Shown here: positions 2,192-11,069 of the stretch, in pieces | How the letters are laid out: each line of letters begins with the position of its first letter | How positions within the stretch are numbered: the stretch's first letter is position 1 | NCBI RefSeq assembly: GCF_014076415.1 | Contig: NZ_CP043568.1 | Span: forward strand, 4,960,001 to 5,024,000 | Source: Comamonas testosteroni | GTDB lineage: Bacteria; Pseudomonadota; Gammaproteobacteria; Burkholderiales; Burkholderiaceae_C | Direction: 5' to 3' | DNA length: 64,000 nucleotides | Position numbers and translations under genes: made by a program | The notes under the pieces: model-generated | The model's database searches: none | Told to the model about the DNA's origin: nothing | Seen by the model: only the letters and a program-made list of their open reading frames with translations

Positions 2192-2935
2192 ATGGACGCT
2201 GGTACCTGGTTCACGCAGCTCAATGCCTGGCAAGTCATGGCATTGGGCCTGGTTTTTTTCGGGGGTATTTATCTGCTGGGCGGCCTGCTTATGGGCGCTC
2301 TGACGGCATCTCTTGCCCGTGCCGGTATTGGCAGGCCGCTGGATATACGTCCGCTCAAGCCCGACCAGTTGCAGCGTGAATGGCGCCAGTCCTTTCATTC
2401 CATACTGATCTTCGGCATAGGCATGATCGTTCCCTGGGGCTTTCTGCAACTGGGCTGGGCCCAGCTCTCGCCCACCGCCAGTGCCGGACGCATCGCTGTG
2501 GAGATCTTTGCGCTGCTGATCTGGAACGATGTGCACTTCTGGATCAACCACCGCCTGCTGCACACGCGCCGCCTGGTGCGCTATCACGGCGACCATCATC
2601 GCTCCGTGGTGACCACGCCCTGGTCCACCTACAGCTTTCACCCCATCGAGGCGCTGATGCTGGGCAATATCATCTTGCTGCCCATGTTGGTGCATGACTT
2701 CAATTTCTGGTCGCTGGCCTCCGTGCCGGTGTTGAGTCTGATCCTGAATCTGATCGGCCATTCCAACTACGATTTTTTCCCTTCAGTCCCCGACACCCAT
2801 CCACTGGCCGCCAGCCGCCGTCACCATCTGCACCACGCGCGCCCGGCAGGCAACTATGGCTTTGCGCTGGCCTTCATGGACCAGCTCATGCGCACGCGGG
2901 TCGCAGACAACACCCCCAAAAGCTCCAGTCACTGA
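2192..2935 (+). CDS. Sterol desaturase / fatty acid hydroxylase superfamily membrane protein
   Basis: This is a 247-residue integral membrane non-haem diiron oxygenase of the fatty acid hydroxylase superfamily, expected to hydroxylate or desaturate a lipid chain. About four hydrophobic segments are visible (residues 13-38, 70-92, 100-118, 160-190). The histidine clusters are HRLLH (120-124), HGDHH (132-136), GHSNYD around 189-194 and HHLHH (211-215), which match the HX3H, HX2HH, HX2HH pattern. It opens a run of plus-strand genes. Its TGA (2933-2935) directly abuts the ATG of the next gene, so the two are probably translationally coupled. The substrate is unknown. Confidence 0.85.
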   Translation: MDAGTWFTQLNAWQVMALGLVFFGGIYLLGGLLMGALTASLARAGIGRPLDIRPLKPDQLQREWRQSFHSILIFGIGMIVPWGFLQLGWAQLSPTASAGRIAVEIFALLIWNDVHFWINHRLLHTRRLVRYHGDHHRSVVTTPWSTYSFHPIEALMLGNIILLPMLVHDFNFWSLASVPVLSLILNLIGHSNYDFFPSVPDTHPLAASRRHHLHHARPAGNYGFALAFMDQLMRTRVADNTPKSSSH

Positions 2936-3868
2936 ATGAGCAGGCACCCAGGCCAGCGCCGGTATCCAGTCCTGCGCCACTGGCGGGACTGGCAATCCGT
3001 CTTCTACATGCTCCTGCTGCCGCTGCTCGTGTGGTGGCAATGGAGGCATGGCTTCAGCTTCATTCTCTACAGCATCGAGCTGTTTCTGACATTGGGAGTA
3101 GGCGTGATTCACCACAACCACACCCATGTGCGCATGTGGTGGGGACGCTGGACCAACCGCTTCACCGACTACTGGCTGACCCTGCTTCAAGGTCACCCCA
3201 CCTTTGTGTTCTGGCCCGCCCATGTAGCCAATCACCATCGATTTCGCCATGGACCGCGCGATCTGGCACGCACCTACCGGCCTGAATGGGGTGGCGATAC
3301 CAATCACCTGTGGGGCTATCTGCTTCACCCGGTTCAGGCGGCTTTCGTGCTGTATCCGTTGTTCTTTCGCTGGCTGAACAATCTGCGCCGTCACTGGCCT
3401 GGCGCCTTTCGCTACTGCATGGGGCAATACGCGTTGTGGCTGGGCAGCTGGAGCTTCTTTCTCTGGCTGGACTGGCAAAAGGCGTTGATCTTCATCATCG
3501 TTCCCCAGTTGCACGGCCTGCACTGGCTGCTGGCCACCAACTATCTGCAGCATGCCCACGCCGATGGCCGACCGCTGACCAGAGCGCAACGCAGTACTCC
3601 GGGTATCGAGCTGAACTACGCGCGCAACTTTGAAGGCCTGGTCAACCCCCTGCTTTTTAATATTGGCCTGCACACCGCGCACCATGAATGCCCGCATGCC
3701 CACTGGTCCGACCTGAGCGGGCTGCACGAACGCATTTATCGGCAACGGGTCACACCTTCATTGAACGAGGGTGGCCTGCTGCCCTATATGGGACGCGTGT
3801 TTGTATTGGGTCTGGTCTGGCCCGCGGCAAGAACCAAGCCGCAGATGCCAACCGACGCTGTGAAGTAA
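2936..3868 (+). CDS. Membrane fatty acid desaturase family protein
   Basis: This is a 310-residue multi-pass diiron desaturase-like protein. The histidine boxes are HHNHTH at 59-64, HVANHHRFRH at 96-105 and HTAHHECPHAH near residues 244-254, with hydrophobic segments between them. The family introduces double bonds into acyl chains (or further oxidises them) at the cytoplasmic membrane using O2 and an electron donor. The start codon follows the upstream stop with no gap, and the gene is 17 nt from the downstream ketosynthase gene, so its substrate could be an acyl-ACP or acyl product of that enzyme. That link is inference; family membership is clear from the boxes. Confidence 0.82.
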   Translation: MSRHPGQRRYPVLRHWRDWQSVFYMLLLPLLVWWQWRHGFSFILYSIELFLTLGVGVIHHNHTHVRMWWGRWTNRFTDYWLTLLQGHPTFVFWPAHVANHHRFRHGPRDLARTYRPEWGGDTNHLWGYLLHPVQAAFVLYPLFFRWLNNLRRHWPGAFRYCMGQYALWLGSWSFFLWLDWQKALIFIIVPQLHGLHWLLATNYLQHAHADGRPLTRAQRSTPGIELNYARNFEGLVNPLLFNIGLHTAHHECPHAHWSDLSGLHERIYRQRVTPSLNEGGLLPYMGRVFVLGLVWPAARTKPQMPTDAVK

Positions 3869-3885
3869 AAACCTGTTGAGGATCT

Positions 3886-5820
3886 ATGCCTGTTTCCTAT
3901 TCCAACGTCTATCTGCAATCTGCCGGCATGTTTCTGCCCGGCGCCCCAGTGGACAATGCTGGCATGGATGCGTTTGTCGCACCGCTGAACCGCATCTCCG
4001 AGCGCATCAAGCGCCGCATCCTGGCCGAGAACGGCATTCAGACCCGCCACTACGCCATCAATGGCGAAGGCCAGACGGTGTTCAGCAACGCCCGCATGGC
4101 AGCCGGCGCGATCGAGGAGACCCTGGCTCTGGCTGGCAAGAAGCTCTGTGATATCGGCTTTCTGTCCAGCGGCTCTTCGGGGGGTGATACGCTGATGCCC
4201 GGCTTTGCCAGCATGATTCAGGGCGAGATGGCCGCCCCGCCCATGGAAACGCTGTCCGTGCACGGGGTCTGCGCCGCCAGTGTGGGCGCCATGCAGGCCG
4301 CTGCCATGGCCGTGGAAAGCGGCGCCCATGCGTTGGCCCTGTCGGTGGCCAGCGAAATGCCTTCGCGCCTTTTCAAGCGTTCGCGCTTTGCAGCACAGGG
4401 CTATGACACCGACTTTGACGCCCACTTTCTGCGCTGGATGCTGTCCGACGGTGCGGGCGCCGTGCTGCTGGGCGGCCCCAAGGCCCTGCCCCAGGCCAAC
4501 GGACTGCGCCTCAAGCTCAAGTGGACGCACCAGCGCAGCTTTGCCGGCGACTATCCCGTGTGCATGCAACTGGGCCTGACGGCCGATCGTGGCACAAGCC
4601 ATCTGGACTTCCCCGCCTGGAGTGATGCCGAGGCCGCAGGCGCTCTGGCACTGCGCCAGGACATTCGCCTGCTGCCGCACCTGTTCGATGTCTGCATTCA
4701 CGAATATGCAGCCCTTGCCCACCAGGGCTGGGTTCCCGAACGCGGCATAGACCACTTTCTCTGCCACTACTCGTCGGAGCGCTTCATCCCTGTTGTCGAC
4801 GAGCTGCTGGACAAGGCCCAGCTCAGCATTCCGCGCGAGCGCTGGTGGAGCAATCTGGCATGGCGCGGCAACACGGGTGCGGCCTCCATCTTCATCATGC
4901 TGTCGGAGTTTCTGCAAAAACAGGGCCAGCGTCTGAAGGCCGGCGACACAGTGCTCTGCTTCATCCCCGAGTCGGGCCGTTTCACAGCAGGCTACATGCT
5001 ATGGGAAGTAGAGCCGGATGCGAATACCGAGCAAACGCCAGAGGCCAGTTTCCGTCGGAAATCTGCACAGTCGACAGCACTGCCGGATGATGCTCTTCCC
5101 GATGTATCCACCATCGCCGCACCCCATGACCCGGCCGCTGCGCCATCGCAACTGGCGCCGCTGCTGACCGAGCTGGCCAGCATCTGGCAGGACTACCGCA
5201 GCAATGTCTGGCGCACGCCCCTGCTCCAGCGCATGCGCACGCGCCAGTTGCAGATTACCGACTATCTGCGCTGGATGAGCCACTGGATTCCCCAGGTGCG
5301 CGAAGGCAGTCTGTGGATGCGAGAAGGCGCGGCCTCGCTGACCGGTGACTACGCCACGCTGGCCTCGCTGATCGACCTCCATGCAGGCGAGGAGCAGAAC
5401 GACTTCAAGATTCTGCACAGCGACTATCTGAAGGCCGGCGGCACCGAGACCGACATCAACCGCCTGCGCCGCAACCCCGGCGGCGAAGCGCTCAATGCCT
5501 ATCTGCACAGCCTGGCTGCCACGCCCAACCCGATCGGCCTGCTGGGCGCCATCTACATCATCGAAGGCACGGGCCAGCGCATCGTTCCCAGCCTGCTGCC
5601 CCTGCTGCGCCAGAGCCTGCCGCTGCCGCCCGATGCCTTCCGCTTTCTCGAATACCACGGCGCCAACGACGAGAACCATCTGGAGCGCTGGCTGCTGGCC
5701 GTGCAGATGGCGCTGGAGCTGGACAGCGAAGGCACGGCCCAGCAGGCCATACTGCAAACTGCGCGCAATACGGCCGCCATGTACCTGATGCAGTTCCAAC
5801 ATGTGCTCGCCGAGCGATAA
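3886..5820 (+). CDS. Fusion: beta-ketoacyl-ACP synthase III domain + haem-oxygenase-like diiron domain
   Basis: A 644-residue two-domain protein. Residues 1-375 are a thiolase-fold KAS III: the catalytic Cys129 sits in VHGVCAASVG, His294 in FLCHYSSERF and Asn329 in WRGNTGAAS, giving the FabH-type Cys-His-Asn triad. A Pro/Ala/Ser-rich linker (about 376-420) leads to a helical domain (about 425-640) with the features of haem-oxygenase-like diiron oxidases: E502/E503 and H511, E560 in IIEGTGQ, and H591-x3-D595-x2-H598. Both active sites look intact. One chain could therefore condense an acyl-ACP and then oxidise or cleave the product. The ATG at 3886 is preceded by GAGGAT. It lies between the desaturase gene and an unknown gene. 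Product and partner are unknown. Confidence 0.8.
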   Translation: MPVSYSNVYLQSAGMFLPGAPVDNAGMDAFVAPLNRISERIKRRILAENGIQTRHYAINGEGQTVFSNARMAAGAIEETLALAGKKLCDIGFLSSGSSGGDTLMPGFASMIQGEMAAPPMETLSVHGVCAASVGAMQAAAMAVESGAHALALSVASEMPSRLFKRSRFAAQGYDTDFDAHFLRWMLSDGAGAVLLGGPKALPQANGLRLKLKWTHQRSFAGDYPVCMQLGLTADRGTSHLDFPAWSDAEAAGALALRQDIRLLPHLFDVCIHEYAALAHQGWVPERGIDHFLCHYSSERFIPVVDELLDKAQLSIPRERWWSNLAWRGNTGAASIFIMLSEFLQKQGQRLKAGDTVLCFIPESGRFTAGYMLWEVEPDANTEQTPEASFRRKSAQSTALPDDALPDVSTIAAPHDPAAAPSQLAPLLTELASIWQDYRSNVWRTPLLQRMRTRQLQITDYLRWMSHWIPQVREGSLWMREGAASLTGDYATLASLIDLHAGEEQNDFKILHSDYLKAGGTETDINRLRRNPGGEALNAYLHSLAATPNPIGLLGAIYIIEGTGQRIVPSLLPLLRQSLPLPPDAFRFLEYHGANDENHLERWLLAVQMALELDSEGTAQQAILQTARNTAAMYLMQFQHVLAER

Positions 5821-5851
5821 CGAGAAACAGCAAGAAGCACCGGGAGGATTC

Positions 5852-6790
5852 ATGAAGAACGAGTTCAACGACCATGTCTGGGACGAGCGCGACCCCAGCC
5901 CCTGGCTGGCGCTCTACCTCGACCAGAGCACACCTCTGCCCGATGACGTCAAGGCCGCCTGGCTGCGCGACTGCAGCAGCAGCTCGCGCCAGTTCTTTCT
6001 GCCGGCCATGCGGCCGCTGGCGCGGCTGTCCATGATCATCATTCAGGCGCTGAAGATCTTTCTGCCCAAGCGCTGGTCGCACTCCATGCTGCTGCACCGC
6101 CTGCTGGCCTTCGGCATGAAGAAGTTTCTCTCGCCAGAGGCCAACTGGCTCATCATGCGCCACTTTCACCTGGGCTCCCAGGTGCTGGCCTTCGTCGCCG
6201 CCAATGCCCCGACCAAGGTCAGCACCGCGCCCTTGATGCCCATGGAAATCGACGATGTGAAGGACGAACTGTTTCTCAAGCACGACCTCAACCTCTTCAA
6301 CTTCGTGATTCGCCTGAACAAGGCACTGCGTGAGAACGGGCAGGAACTGGTGCCCGTGGCCGAGCCCGATTTCTCCATGATCCGCGAGCCCGATCTCAGA
6401 CTCGAAGACATGCCGCGCGGGCGCTTCAACGTCATTGACCTGCAAAGCGCCATCGAGCTGTACACGCCCATCTACCAGTTGTTGCTGACCGACAACGACT
6501 TCTGGCGCGCCAGCAACTCGCTGCAGCTCGACGAAACCGTTGCCATCTACTGCGCCAAGATCCTGGCATCGCCAGAGCATCTGGTGCTGCTCAACAACAA
6601 ACACCCCATGGTTCCCCTGTCTACGCTGTATGCAGCCTACCGCCTGGTGCTGCACGGCCTCTCCACCGAGATGCTGCACTCACTGCTGACACGCATGGCC
6701 AACGGCGAGCACCCCATTCCCGCGCGCGAGCTGGCCAAGATGCACCAGGCCGCCGAGACGGTGATGGATCAGACCCCCGCGCAAAGCTGA
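5852..6790 (+). CDS. Conserved protein of unknown function in the lipid operon
   Basis: I do not recognise a named family. The start at 5852 is chosen because GGGAGG precedes it; an ATG at 5801 would overlap the upstream gene by 20 nt and has no ribosome site. The protein is about 312 residues and largely helical, with a hydrophobic stretch near residues 45-65 (LSMIIIQALKIFLP) that could be membrane-associated. Several acidic and His residues are scattered (for example LIMRHFHLGSQ and FLKHDLNLFNF) but no known catalytic motif is seen. It starts 31 nt after the KAS III-diiron fusion gene, so a role in the same lipid pathway is likely by context only. Confidence 0.6.
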   Translation: MKNEFNDHVWDERDPSPWLALYLDQSTPLPDDVKAAWLRDCSSSSRQFFLPAMRPLARLSMIIIQALKIFLPKRWSHSMLLHRLLAFGMKKFLSPEANWLIMRHFHLGSQVLAFVAANAPTKVSTAPLMPMEIDDVKDELFLKHDLNLFNFVIRLNKALRENGQELVPVAEPDFSMIREPDLRLEDMPRGRFNVIDLQSAIELYTPIYQLLLTDNDFWRASNSLQLDETVAIYCAKILASPEHLVLLNNKHPMVPLSTLYAAYRLVLHGLSTEMLHSLLTRMANGEHPIPARELAKMHQAAETVMDQTPAQS

Positions 6791-6793
6791 GCC

Positions 6794-7435
6794 ATGGACC
6801 CACAGAGCAATCGCATCACAGGCGTTCGCATCGACGAGCAGACCATCTGGCTTGCACTGGCGGACGGACGTGAACTGGCCGAGCCCATCAAGCGGCATAT
6901 CCGCCTGGAAAGCGCCGCGCCCGATCAAAGGCTGCACTGGGTTCTGACCGACGAGGATCACGGTCTGAACTGGCCGGCGCTTTGGCAGCCGGCTCCCGCA
7001 GGCATGGTCAGCGTCTGGGACCTGGATCAGGACAGTCTCTACAACCAGGCCATGGGCGCGCTGGCCTCCGCCCAATGGGACGTCACCCTGATATCCCCGG
7101 CCCAGCATCAGCTGGTGGCTCTGTGGCGCATGGAAGCCGATATCAACAACGGCGGCTTTCTGCAGTTTCTGGGCAACTGGGGAGTGGCGAACCATCAGCT
7201 CACACTGCAGGCTCTGCAGGCCATAGGCGCGCCCGTCACGCAGCAATGCCTGCAAGACATGTTTGCGGTGGTCAGGCGCTTTGAAGACATGCCAGAAAAT
7301 GTGGACCTCTCCGATCTGCCTGCGCTGCTGACGGACGCCGAACACGAGCAATTGCAGGAACTGGAAGAAGCCTTCTGGGACTACCCGGAGCCTTTGAACA
7401 AGCTCGTGGTCATGCACTACGGACCCGCCCAATGA
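6794..7435 (+). CDS. DUF2442-like domain fused to DUF4375 (DMP19-like) domain
   Basis: A 213-residue protein. Residues 1-75 resemble DUF2442 (VRIDEQTIWLALADGRELAEPI). Residues 85-210 carry the DUF4375/DMP19 hallmark MEADINNGGFLQFLGNWG with the following helices. DMP19 of Neisseria is a DNA-mimic protein that sequesters a transcription factor; whether this homologue does so is unknown. The C-terminal half is acidic (several E and D runs), in keeping with a mimic. It begins 3 nt after the previous stop and overlaps the next gene by 4 nt (ATGA), so it is co-translated with the Imm22 gene. Confidence 0.65.
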   Translation: MDPQSNRITGVRIDEQTIWLALADGRELAEPIKRHIRLESAAPDQRLHWVLTDEDHGLNWPALWQPAPAGMVSVWDLDQDSLYNQAMGALASAQWDVTLISPAQHQLVALWRMEADINNGGFLQFLGNWGVANHQLTLQALQAIGAPVTQQCLQDMFAVVRRFEDMPENVDLSDLPALLTDAEHEQLQELEEAFWDYPEPLNKLVVMHYGPAQ

Positions 7436-8022
7436 AGTCTGATAACCAATCCGGCGAGACCTATTCGCTGGCATTTCGCAAAGCCCTGGTGGACGAAGCG
7501 CTGAATCGCACACCCGGCGGCGGGTTTCCGGAGCTGGAAAAGCGCCACCGCCTCAGGCCCGGCACCCTGTTCGACTGGGTCGATGAGCTGGGCCCGACAC
7601 CGCCGCCTGCGCCTTTTTCTGCACTGCATTTCTGGATAGGCAATACGCCGCTGGGCGAGCCGGAATTTGCCCGCTACTTTGAACATGCAGACAGTTACTG
7701 GGATCTGGAAGTCGAAGACATCGAGGGCAGCAGCGAAGATGTCACAGGCTGCGGCTTCTGCCAGGACCTGGGCAGAAAATTTCTGTTCGACGAAGACCTG
7801 CTGCTGGTGATCTGGCTGCCCGAGCCGGTCCCTGTCTCTGCCTTGGTGAGCCACAGCACCCTGGACTCCGATACATCGCTCGCACTCATCGTGCAGGCCT
7901 GCGAGGCCCAAGGCATTCGTACGGCCAACGCCATGTTTGTCTATGCCGACCCCTGCGAAACGATCACCGATCCGGACAAGCTCTACAACGGACTGAGCTA
8001 CATCGGTCTTTTTGACGACTGA
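7432..8022 (+). CDS. Imm22-type immunity protein with N-terminal transposase-like helix-turn-helix
   Basis: A 196-residue protein. Residues about 55-195 match Immunity protein 22 (DUF4284), starting at LHFWIGNTPLGEPEFARYFE and running through acidic segments. Imm22 proteins are predicted to neutralise polymorphic toxins of contact-dependent or type VI systems. Residues 1-50 (FRKALVDEALNR...HRLRPGTLFDWVDELG) resemble the helix-turn-helix of IS3-type OrfA proteins, an uncommon pairing. The gene overlaps its upstream neighbour by 4 nt. No toxin gene is recognisable nearby, so this is an orphan immunity-like gene or one recruited to another role. Confidence 0.6.
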   Translation: MKSDNQSGETYSLAFRKALVDEALNRTPGGGFPELEKRHRLRPGTLFDWVDELGPTPPPAPFSALHFWIGNTPLGEPEFARYFEHADSYWDLEVEDIEGSSEDVTGCGFCQDLGRKFLFDEDLLLVIWLPEPVPVSALVSHSTLDSDTSLALIVQACEAQGIRTANAMFVYADPCETITDPDKLYNGLSYIGLFDD

Positions 8023-8052
8023 CGCAGCTCAGACGCTTTTTCCATCTTCTTC

Positions 8053-9216
8053 ATGCAAGACTTGATTGCCCAGATTTCGCAGCAATGGCTACAGCTGCCG
8101 GATTGCCAGGCCGAACACAAGGACGCAGCCAGAACACGCATTACCAGCAGCGCGGCAGCCGGCTCCATGGATGTCGAATTCTTTGTGCACCACGGTGGCA
8201 ACGGTGCTTTCTCGGCCACCAGGTATGAGGAGGCCATGCAGCTGAGTGCGGAGCATCGGCTTCATGCCTGGATCACGCTGCGCGATGTGGCCGGTGAAGT
8301 CATACACCATGAGGTCAGCTGCAACCCCGGGCGCTTTGCACATCTGCTGCATGAATGGCGTATAGCGCCTGATGCAGCGCCGGAACAGGTCACCATCCAG
8401 GCCATGGCCTGCACTCCATCTCTCGCGGAAACTGAAGCCCGTGCCCCGTCAATGGATCAGGACCTGAACCTCGGCCTGCTGGACCAGCTCGCGGATGCCC
8501 AGCAGGCGCTTGAACGGCTCAAGGCCGATGTGGCCGCTGTCGACCTCATGCGCCTGCTTCAATCCTGGCCGCGCGATGATCGTGGACGACCTGCAGCGCG
8601 CACCACCGCCATACTCGCGGCCTATGGCCCCGCCACACGCAAGCGCCAGCCCTGCCTGCTGGTTCGATCGGTCATGCAGTCAAAGATGCCCTACTGGCAA
8701 TTGCGTCTGTCGTCCGAGTTTCTCTACAACTGCCGCCATCAATGGAGCGATGCCCGCTGGCTGTGGTCGCCGGCAGAGCTCCCCAAGGACTCGGCTCTGG
8801 AGCGCAAGGCACGCAATCTGATGGCACAAGGCAAGGTCAGCGAGGCCTGCGCACTGTATGGCATCGAACTGCATGAACGCGTGCGTAGACTTGCCGCAGG
8901 TCAGTCATTCCAGCGCTTCTCCCCCGCGCCAGAGGCCTGGGGGCAAGAGCTGCGAGCTGCGCTCCTGCAACTGGCCCCGTGGCGTCTCACAGCAGGCCTG
9001 CAACGCATACAGGAGCACCTGATTCAGGCCAACCGCAAGCCTCCCCAGCCCGGCAGCTGGGAACGCAAGCTGTTCTGGTTCTCAGGCCAGCGCCAACAGG
9101 CGCGCTGGGGCCCCGGAGTGCGCTTCGACAAGGAGGGCAATCCGGTGCTGGACCTGATCGTCACCGCATCCAACGAGCATTTTCCCGAGCCTGACTGGAA
9201 GCAGCAGCCACGCTAA
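8053..9216 (+). CDS. Hypothetical protein
   Basis: A 387-residue protein I cannot assign. No signal peptide or transmembrane segment is evident, so it is probably cytoplasmic. The N-terminal 110 residues look like a small alpha/beta domain (VEFFVHHGGNGAFSATRYEE, WITLRDVAGEVIHHEVSC). A helical middle (150-180) follows, and then a Trp- and Arg-rich C-terminal half. No Shine-Dalgarno is clear before the ATG at 8053. It lies 30 nt after the Imm22 gene on the same strand and converges on the GGDEF-EAL gene with only 5 nt between stops. It may belong to the same accessory unit as its two upstream neighbours. Confidence 0.55.
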   Translation: MQDLIAQISQQWLQLPDCQAEHKDAARTRITSSAAAGSMDVEFFVHHGGNGAFSATRYEEAMQLSAEHRLHAWITLRDVAGEVIHHEVSCNPGRFAHLLHEWRIAPDAAPEQVTIQAMACTPSLAETEARAPSMDQDLNLGLLDQLADAQQALERLKADVAAVDLMRLLQSWPRDDRGRPAARTTAILAAYGPATRKRQPCLLVRSVMQSKMPYWQLRLSSEFLYNCRHQWSDARWLWSPAELPKDSALERKARNLMAQGKVSEACALYGIELHERVRRLAAGQSFQRFSPAPEAWGQELRAALLQLAPWRLTAGLQRIQEHLIQANRKPPQPGSWERKLFWFSGQRQQARWGPGVRFDKEGNPVLDLIVTASNEHFPEPDWKQQPR

Positions 9217-9221
9217 TCCCG

Positions 9222-11069
9222 TCAAGCCACTGCCAGCCAGTCCCGCACCTGCTCGGCGGGCATGGCTCGCGAATGCAGCCAGCCCTGGAAAAACTCGCAA
9301 CCGATGTCGCGCAGCAGCTGCAGCTGATCGAGCTCTTCTACACCTTCGGCCACGACCTCCAGATCCAGCGCATGGGCCATATGCACAATGCCGCCCATCA
9401 GTCTGTCCCGGCAAGGCGAGGGAAACAGAAACTCCCGCCCCAGCTTGACGCGCCGCAGCGGCAGATATTGAAGATAGGCCAATGACGAATGGCCGGTGCC
9501 GAAATCATCCAGTGCAATCGTCACTCCCAGCCGCGCCAGCCCCTGCAGCACTTCGCTCCCCTGAGCAGGGTTGATCATGGCCTGGGATTCGGTCACCTCC
9601 AGCTCCAGCCATTGCGGCGGTACCTGATAGCGCTGCAAACAGCTGCTGACCTGCTCGACCAGATTCACCTGCCGCAGTTGATAGGCAGAAAGATTGACCG
9701 CAACCCGCAGCGGCGTGCCAGCCCTGAGCCACAGCGCGATCTGCTTGCAGGCTGCGTCGAGGACATAGTTGCCCAGAGCCACGATCTGGCCCGAGGCCTC
9801 GGCTACCGGAATAAAGCGCGCCGGGCTGACATTGCCCAGCAAGGGATCATGCCAGCGAAGCAAGGCCTCAACAGCCACCACTGTGGCGCTCTCGACCTTG
9901 ACCTGGGGCTGGTAATGCAGCTGCAAACCACCATAGCTGAGCGCCATGCGCAAGCGCTCGGCCAGTTGCACGCGTTCGGCCATTTCCTTGCCCATGGCGG
10001 GCTCAAAAAATACCGCATGGCCGCGCCCCCGGGCCTTGGCGCTGTACATTGCCATATCGGCGAAACGCATCAGGTCGTCACCGGTCTGCGCATCGTCGGG
10101 ATAAAAGGCAATGCCCACGCTGGCACCAAAATCCAGCGCCAGCCCGTCATGCTTGAAGGGGATGGAGAGCGCAGCCAGTATCTGCTCGCTCCAGAAGCGG
10201 GCCCGAGCCGCATTCTCACCCACCAGCAGCACCATGAATTCATCGCCCCCCAGGCGTGCCAGCACGCCCTCGCTGCGCAGCTGGGACTTCAGCCGCCTGG
10301 CGACCTCCCGCAGCAGCTGATCGCCTGCTGCATGGCCGTAGCCGTCATTGATGGCCTTGAAGTTGTCGAGATCCAGCTGCAGCAGGGCCAGTGCTTCGCC
10401 GTCGGCCTGCGCCAGCTTGAGTTGCTCCTGCAGCTCCTGGCCGAATTGCCAGCGATTGTTGAGTCCCGTCAAGGTGTCCTTGGTGGCCTGGAACTTCAGG
10501 CGTTGCTGCATCTGATGCAGCTCCGTCACATCGCGCACAAAGGCAATGGCCAGGCCTTTGTCGTCATCGCCAAAATAGCCAAGAGCAATGTCCACCGGCA
10601 CGGCATTGCCCTGCTTGCGCTTCAGCCACAGCACACCGCCAAGTCCCATGGGCCGGCGCGATGGCTGGGCAAAGTAGCTGCGCAGGTAATGACCATGCCC
10701 GGCCTGAAACTCGGGCGGCAGCAGCATGTCCAGCGCCTGCCCTTCGAGCTCGCCGCGCCCATAGCCTGAAATGGCCTGCATGGCGGCATTGGCCGTCACG
10801 ATGTTACCGTCGCGGTCCACCAGCAAAATGCCGTCCGGAGCGGCATCCAGCGCCTGCTGCTCACGCCGGCTCAGCATGGCAGAAAGACTCACCCCCTCCT
10901 GCCAGGCCGACATGGCCAGTCGCAACCGGCGCTGGCATTCCGCCAGCGCTGGTTCAGACACCGGTTTGAGCATTGAAGAAAAAGGGCACTCGGCCATACA
11001 CAGACTCCAGATATCCACTCTGGCGTCCCTGCGTGCAGCCACTCCCCATGCTGCATCAACGGCCTGCAT
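9222..11069 (-). CDS. PAS-GGDEF-EAL cyclic di-GMP signalling protein
   Basis: A protein of about 615 residues. An N-terminal region leads to a PAS domain (about 70-190, DAAPDGILLVDRDGNIVTAN), a GGDEF domain with intact GGDEF in LARLGGDEFMVLL, and an EAL domain with EALLRW, the Asn in VAVNLSAYQL, Glu in EVTES, DDFGTGHSS, AEGVE and FFQGW. The I-site position before GGDEF reads RSEG instead of RxxD, so product inhibition may be lost. In the EAL domain the usual K-[IL]-D motif reads KLG. No transmembrane segment is visible, so it is probably cytosolic. The start is uncertain: an ATG at 11069 or the TTG just before it. Confidence 0.88.
   Translation of the reverse strand: MQAVDAAWGVAARRDARVDIWSLCMAECPFSSMLKPVSEPALAECQRRLRLAMSAWQEGVSLSAMLSRREQQALDAAPDGILLVDRDGNIVTANAAMQAISGYGRGELEGQALDMLLPPEFQAGHGHYLRSYFAQPSRRPMGLGGVLWLKRKQGNAVPVDIALGYFGDDDKGLAIAFVRDVTELHQMQQRLKFQATKDTLTGLNNRWQFGQELQEQLKLAQADGEALALLQLDLDNFKAINDGYGHAAGDQLLREVARRLKSQLRSEGVLARLGGDEFMVLLVGENAARARFWSEQILAALSIPFKHDGLALDFGASVGIAFYPDDAQTGDDLMRFADMAMYSAKARGRGHAVFFEPAMGKEMAERVQLAERLRMALSYGGLQLHYQPQVKVESATVVAVEALLRWHDPLLGNVSPARFIPVAEASGQIVALGNYVLDAACKQIALWLRAGTPLRVAVNLSAYQLRQVNLVEQVSSCLQRYQVPPQWLELEVTESQAMINPAQGSEVLQGLARLGVTIALDDFGTGHSSLAYLQYLPLRRVKLGREFLFPSPCRDRLMGGIVHMAHALDLEVVAEGVEELDQLQLLRDIGCEFFQGWLHSRAMPAEQVRDWLAVA

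Follow-up and report, generated by a model that had tools for sequence, protein, structure and literature searches.

The window analysed here is a stretch of 64,000 nucleotides (nt) from Comamonas testosteroni, whose genome comprises 5.95 Mb in two contigs; the window covers positions 4960001-5024000 of contig 1. It contains a run of four genes on the forward strand, at 2192-2935, 2936-3868, 3886-5820 and 5852-6790. A first-pass annotation had described four same-strand genes separated by 0, 17 and 31 nt, and both the list of open reading frames (ORFs) and the recomputed gaps agree with this layout. The third gene encodes a ketosynthase (KS) fused to a haem-oxygenase-like domain, presumed to be a di-metal oxidase (HDO), and the fourth encodes a member of Pfam family DUF6999. 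We refer to KS, HDO and DUF6999 together as the trio. For the DUF6999 gene, the first start given by the ORF caller (5801) overlaps the fusion gene; the start used here, 5852, is where the alignment of its relatives begins, and leaves the 31-nt gap. The features are as follows, with lengths and positions in amino acids (aa).

2192-2935 (+): membrane protein of the fatty-acid hydroxylase/sterol-desaturase family, 247 aa, FA_hydroxylase PF04116 (74.8 bits, 1.1e-20); accessory
2936-3868 (+): membrane fatty-acid desaturase, 310 aa, FA_desaturase PF00487 (59.8 bits, 4.4e-16); accessory
3886-5820 (+): KS-HDO fusion gene, 644 aa, with ACP_syn_III_C and Haem_oxygenas_2 (PF14518) in a single protein
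3886-5028 (+): KS half of the fusion, aa 1-381, StlD/DarB-like ketosynthase with Cys129-His294-Asn329
5029-5139 (+): variable linker of the fusion, aa 382-418, with a predicted local distance difference test score (pLDDT) below 50 at 382-402
5140-5820 (+): HDO half of the fusion, aa 419-644, haem-oxygenase-like domain, presumed di-metal oxidase
5852-6790 (+): DUF6999 gene, 312 aa, PF22523 (422.8 bits), predicted all-helical; constant partner

Conservation was first assessed in 41 genomes, namely the window's own, 24 others of the genus and 16 of the order. Full-length relatives of the fusion protein were found in the own genome, in 20 of the 24 other genus members and in two of the 16 order genomes. 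The four genus members without the fusion have genomes of 2.3-3.2 Mb, and two of these are 85% complete. All four genes occur in the same order at every one of the 23 loci, with the hydroxylase gene clipped at the locus edge, and this preserved order indicates that the operon is not a chance arrangement. Together with the Pfam matches, it bears out the earlier description of a lipid-type operon with a hydroxylase, a desaturase, a KAS III-fold/HDO fusion and a protein of unknown type. A lack of joint conservation, which the same annotation had named as speaking against its proposal, was not what we found, either at these 23 loci or in a wider collection, where the core is kept at 84 of 87 loci.

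This wider collection derives from a scan of named genomes that yielded 396 DUF6999 relatives. The best 80 of the 396 were fetched as loci, eight regions from other genomes were added and a duplicate was removed, giving 87 loci in which genes were called by our own script and not by a gene finder. The duplicate (L045, whose record is identical to L049) is excluded from the locus counts and the KS tree, and a KS-cluster ORF of L084 (18802-19824) is excluded from the tree. The best 80 of the 396 include Sphingomonadales, Sneathiella, Luteimonas/Lysobacter, Achromobacter, Bordetella, Variovorax, Collimonas, Myxococcaceae and an Acidobacteria metagenome-assembled genome (MAG), among others. Overall, trio loci span Pseudomonadota, Myxococcota and one Acidobacteria MAG.

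At 84 of the 87 loci, the DUF6999 gene has a KS or KS/HDO gene on its own strand no more than 4 kb away; one of the 84, L079, shows the HDO part alone before the contig edge. Two of the three exceptions (L073 and L077) are cut at the contig start, and the third (L058) carries its KS about 8 kb away. In this last locus, from Novosphingobium profundi, some 8 kb of other genes lie between the KS (91-1230) and the HDO-DUF6999 pair (9271-10840); the operon is broken up, and the HDO gene still adjoins DUF6999. HDO and DUF6999 are no more than 50 nt apart in 72 of 85 cases. An insert or gene of approximately 0.8-1.2 kb intervenes between KS-HDO and DUF6999 at four of the 84 loci. It is another PF00487 desaturase in two Myxococcaceae loci (L070, L075) and in the Acidobacteria locus L081, and uncharacterised sequence in L085. 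The L085 interval (8779-9973, Myxococcus eversor) is about 1.2 kb long and carries short opposite-strand gene calls.

KS and HDO are encoded by separate genes in 24 loci, and in 20 of these the two genes overlap by 4 nt. Most split-gene loci are alphaproteobacterial, the others being an unclassified Proteobacteria MAG (L069), L062 (titled Bacillus) and L046 (genome G402, from the window's class). The tree places the trio KS of L062 (Bacillus sp. 2B10) together with two Novosphingobium sequences, and the L062 genome is probably mislabelled or contaminated. The genes are likewise split and adjacent in a Pseudoalteromonas locus, L166, which was found later than the 87-locus set. On the KS tree the fused or split state changed at least twice, a count that depends in part on L046, flagged there as a long branch. 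The occurrence of KS and HDO as separate but closely coupled genes in some lineages, and as a fusion elsewhere, suggests a shared substrate.

DUF6999 itself is sparsely distributed. It is present in 13 of 300 genomes of the order and in nine of 398 genomes sampled across the phylum, and these nine are exactly the genomes that carry a trio-type KS. Among 14 named control genomes, Caulobacter vibrioides alone has it. We conclude that the genes almost certainly form a conserved biosynthetic module with the trio KS-HDO-DUF6999 as its core.

The hydroxylase and the desaturase are frequent accessories and not part of this core. A relative of the hydroxylase is located within 5.5 kb of DUF6999 on the same strand in 45 of the 87 loci (44 upstream, one downstream), and a desaturase of the window's type in 44. 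Both occur together in 42 loci, the hydroxylase alone in three and the desaturase alone in two. The presence of two membrane fatty-acid enzymes within the operon could mean that the KS supplies an elongated or branched acyl chain, from which the HDO, the desaturase and the hydroxylase make an unusual fatty acid of membrane lipids. HDOs that act on fatty acids are known (PMC13108848). In addition, six Sphingomonadales loci carry a gene for about 1130 aa some 20-90 nt downstream of the trio (for example L049:10886-14287 (+)), and a Pfam scan of one product revealed a transporter/acyltransferase/AMP-ligase fusion. However, roughly half of the loci lack the two membrane enzymes, and plain elongation would be an unusual task for a KS of the DarB type, which leaves this explanation unlikely.

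Several further observations concern the accessory genes. A His-rich, membrane-like protein of 185-188 aa is encoded directly before the split KS in L046 (10441-11007 (-)) and L166 (3621-4178 (+)). The two copies share 64% identity, and a search for a Pfam match gave none; the protein may be a third type of membrane oxygenase that works with the trio. Downstream of the trio in a Woeseia MAG, one gene (L115:10991-12379 (+)) encodes a hydroxylase joined to a PAP2-type phosphatase domain, a hint that the lipid being tailored could be a phospholipid or a compound derived from one. Regulators belonging to one cluster, among them L049:7271-7891 (-), lie upstream in nine loci, mostly in divergent orientation, and the two members scanned are TetR-type.

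By both sequence and fold, the family closest to the KS is StlD/DarB, whose members form cyclohexanediones or resorcinols. The earlier description of a KAS III domain fused to a diiron oxidase-like domain thus holds for the KAS III fold and for the HDO-type domain, but the ketosynthase differs from an ordinary KAS III and belongs specifically to the StlD/DarB kind. The Cys-His-Asn triad (C129, H294, N329) is kept in 85 of 85 trio KS sequences and in 12 of 12 DarB sequences, and 40 conserved columns are common to the two. On the tree, the trio KS forms a sister group separate from DarB (100/100), and the nearest named KS outside the genus is that of Corticibacter populi (L111, Comamonadaceae). 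In the characterised pathway, darB encodes the dialkylresorcinol cyclase and darA the aromatase (PMC3949708), heterologous expression of darA and darB leads to dialkylresorcinol (PMC3992019), and cyclohexanediones are intermediates (PMC4414361).

A gene for 305-334 aa adjoins DarB in the two DarB loci viewed and was taken as DarA by position. Using the gene beside DarB in L129, named by position only, as the query, we found a homologue adjacent to DarB in 12 of 12 DarB genomes. No homologue of this query was found in eight of the nine trio genomes, including the window's own. The ninth, G413, carries neighbouring DarB and DarA genes as well as the trio. This pattern suggests that the trio has another kind of oxidase in the same setting as DarA.

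The HDO domain of the window scores 40.4 bits against the PF14518 cut-off of 28.9, and all 17 members of alignment A5 match this model (E at most 0.01). The HDO gene of the Pseudoalteromonas locus (L166:5283-5963 (+)), annotated as an iron-containing redox enzyme, has no PF14518 match, which indicates that the model misses divergent members. Eight residues (H499, E503, D506, E534, E560, H591, D595 and H598) do not vary across 36 fused sequences and the 17 of alignment A5 (52 different). Most HDOs use a ligand set of three histidines and three carboxylates (3H/3C), and the reactions known for the family include N-oxygenation, C-C cleavage, desaturation and rearrangements (PMC13108848). The three invariant histidines (H499, H591, H598) and five carboxylates of the trio domain are, judged from sequence alone, compatible with such a set.

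The same domain could instead form a terminal alkene by decarboxylating a fatty acid or a beta-keto acid, in the manner of UndA, an HDO of the same superfamily (PMC13108848); beta-keto products of the KS could serve as substrates. Yet when the HDO profile was compared with the PDB, the sole clear relative was 3dde, whose function is unassigned; there was no sequence-level match to characterised HDOs in the PDB and no UndA chain among the matches. We regard alkene formation as very unlikely.

The remaining partner is a clear member of PF22523 (422.8 bits against a cut-off of 27). The earlier label of an unrecognised helical protein is therefore right about the helices, according to the predicted all-helical model (mean pLDDT 92.9; predicted template modelling score 0.88), but the protein is recognised as DUF6999, a family without an assigned function. 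The model gave no good match to solved structures, and the profile gave no sequence match in the PDB. Five residues (H104, H144, D145, H268 and E273) are invariant in 60 DUF6999 sequences, a pattern that suggests a catalytic or metal-binding role. No paper naming DUF6999 was found in the open-licence PubMed Central literature.

The reading that we favour, with a probability of roughly 45%, is that the operon encodes a lipid module in which the KS forms a ring resembling a dialkyl-cyclohexane-1,3-dione, the HDO oxidises it with O2, DUF6999 assists and the membrane enzymes tailor the chains. Ring formation is favoured over an alkene, a polyyne or a plain modified fatty acid because the KS is of the StlD/DarB kind. 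Like DarB, the KS would join two thioesters derived from fatty acids and close the ring to give a 2,5-dialkylcyclohexane-1,3-dione, with or without a carboxyl group. The HDO, held on the KS, would then oxidise this product with O2 in place of the aromatase DarA. The outcome might be aromatisation to a resorcinol, or ring hydroxylation or oxidative decarboxylation to a hydroxylated or quinonoid ring. DUF6999 would presumably be needed for the KS or the HDO step, or for holding the lipid product. Where present, the desaturase and hydroxylase would modify the alkyl chains in the membrane. A broader and more doubtful extension is that the trio makes a widespread class of cyclic lipids by a second, DarA-free route to resorcinol- or quinone-type lipids via a fused, O2-dependent HDO, and that DUF6999 is a new family of enzymes or lipid-binding proteins.

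Several observations weigh against ring formation followed by HDO oxidation. None of the 24 split-gene loci has the hydroxylase or the desaturase, and neither gene is present at 13 of the 60 loci of the fused class, among them that of Corticibacter populi (L111), the closest named relative. No ring-aromatising enzyme is among the HDOs described in the passages of the HDO review considered here (PMC13108848). The putative DarA proteins matched no curated DarA model, and one of the two gives weak flavodoxin matches that fall under the cut-offs; the absence of DarA was scored in nine trio genomes only. In addition, the KS scores 306 bits against the curated StlD/DarB model NF005293, below the cut-off of 450. 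In the 398 genomes, nine trio KS proteins score 302-398 on this model, and the twelve proteins above the cut-off score 560-601. The low score and the separate group suggest that the KS product may differ from that of DarB. Indeed, the KS might condense two acyl chains and then lactonise or stop early, as PpyS or OleA do, leaving an alpha-pyrone, a beta-keto acid or a ketone for the HDO to oxidise or decarboxylate. The sub-cut-off score would fit this alternative, as would the ranking of AbyA1 and OleA as the next-best folds after StlD. In contrast, the active-site motifs are those of DarB, and StlD stands clearly apart from AbyA1 and OleA in both sequence and fold (PpyS was not in the comparison). 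We therefore consider an early-stopping KS improbable and retain the dione-forming KS as the preferred reading.

The gene that follows the operon starts at 6794, 3 nt past the DUF6999 gene. It occupies this position in just six of the 23 related loci (one other locus ends with its contig), and on this basis we place it outside the operon. The interval 6794-8022 contains a DUF2442/DMP19 gene and a DUF4284 (Immunity protein 22) gene, the former probably a recent neighbour. Pfam searches with five neighbouring proteins (49-801, 887-1942 and 6794-9216) identified a sigma factor, TctC, DUF2442/DMP19, DUF4284 and one protein without a match. These neighbours bear on a polyyne pathway, which the desaturase in the operon might otherwise bring to mind. 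Clusters for such pathways encode several desaturases together with an acyl-ACP ligase, a dedicated ACP and a thioesterase. None of the five neighbours is a polyyne-type acyl-ACP ligase, ACP or thioesterase, and a polyyne product is highly improbable. The alkene and polyyne options of the first-pass annotation thus gained no specific support, given the kind of KS, which points to a ring, the missing tie to UndA and the lack of polyyne partners in these neighbours.

Dialkylresorcinols and cyclohexanediones serve bacteria as signals and as parts of pigments (PMC4414361, PMC3992019). If the dione-forming reading is correct, the trio represents a separate, widespread pathway with a di-metal oxidase in place of DarA, which would extend the reactions of the HDO family and assign a role to DUF6999. 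Its product would be expected in several hundred sequenced species, given the 396 DUF6999 relatives in one scan. A cluster search that expects DarA would presumably miss this pathway. In keeping with the earlier statement that no described pathway has this gene set, we found no description of the KS-HDO-DUF6999 set or of the four-gene operon in titles and abstract openings of the open-licence PubMed Central literature.

Compared with known systems, the HDO domain shares the Haem_oxygenas_2 family with UndA, SznF, CADD, BesC, HrmI, AetD, PolF and MboA, and its three invariant histidines and its carboxylates would be compatible with a 3H/3C set (PMC13108848). Unlike those HDOs, it is fused to or encoded beside a ketosynthase. 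The closest parallels for the KS are the DarA-DarB systems of dialkylresorcinol and flexirubin biosynthesis and StlD of the stilbene pathway, which make up its nearest family by sequence and fold; with DarB it has the Cys-His-Asn triad and the 40 conserved columns in common. The trio differs from DarA-DarB in having HDO and DUF6999 instead, in lacking a DarA homologue in eight of nine genomes, and in a KS that forms a separate group and scores below the cut-off. Another di-metal enzyme, CylC, belongs to a fold family different from that of the HDOs. The cyanobacterial CylC dialkylresorcinol clusters resemble the trio in that a DarB-type KS is clustered with a di-metal carboxylate enzyme, but there CylC is a halogenase and DarA homologues are present (PMC8406957).
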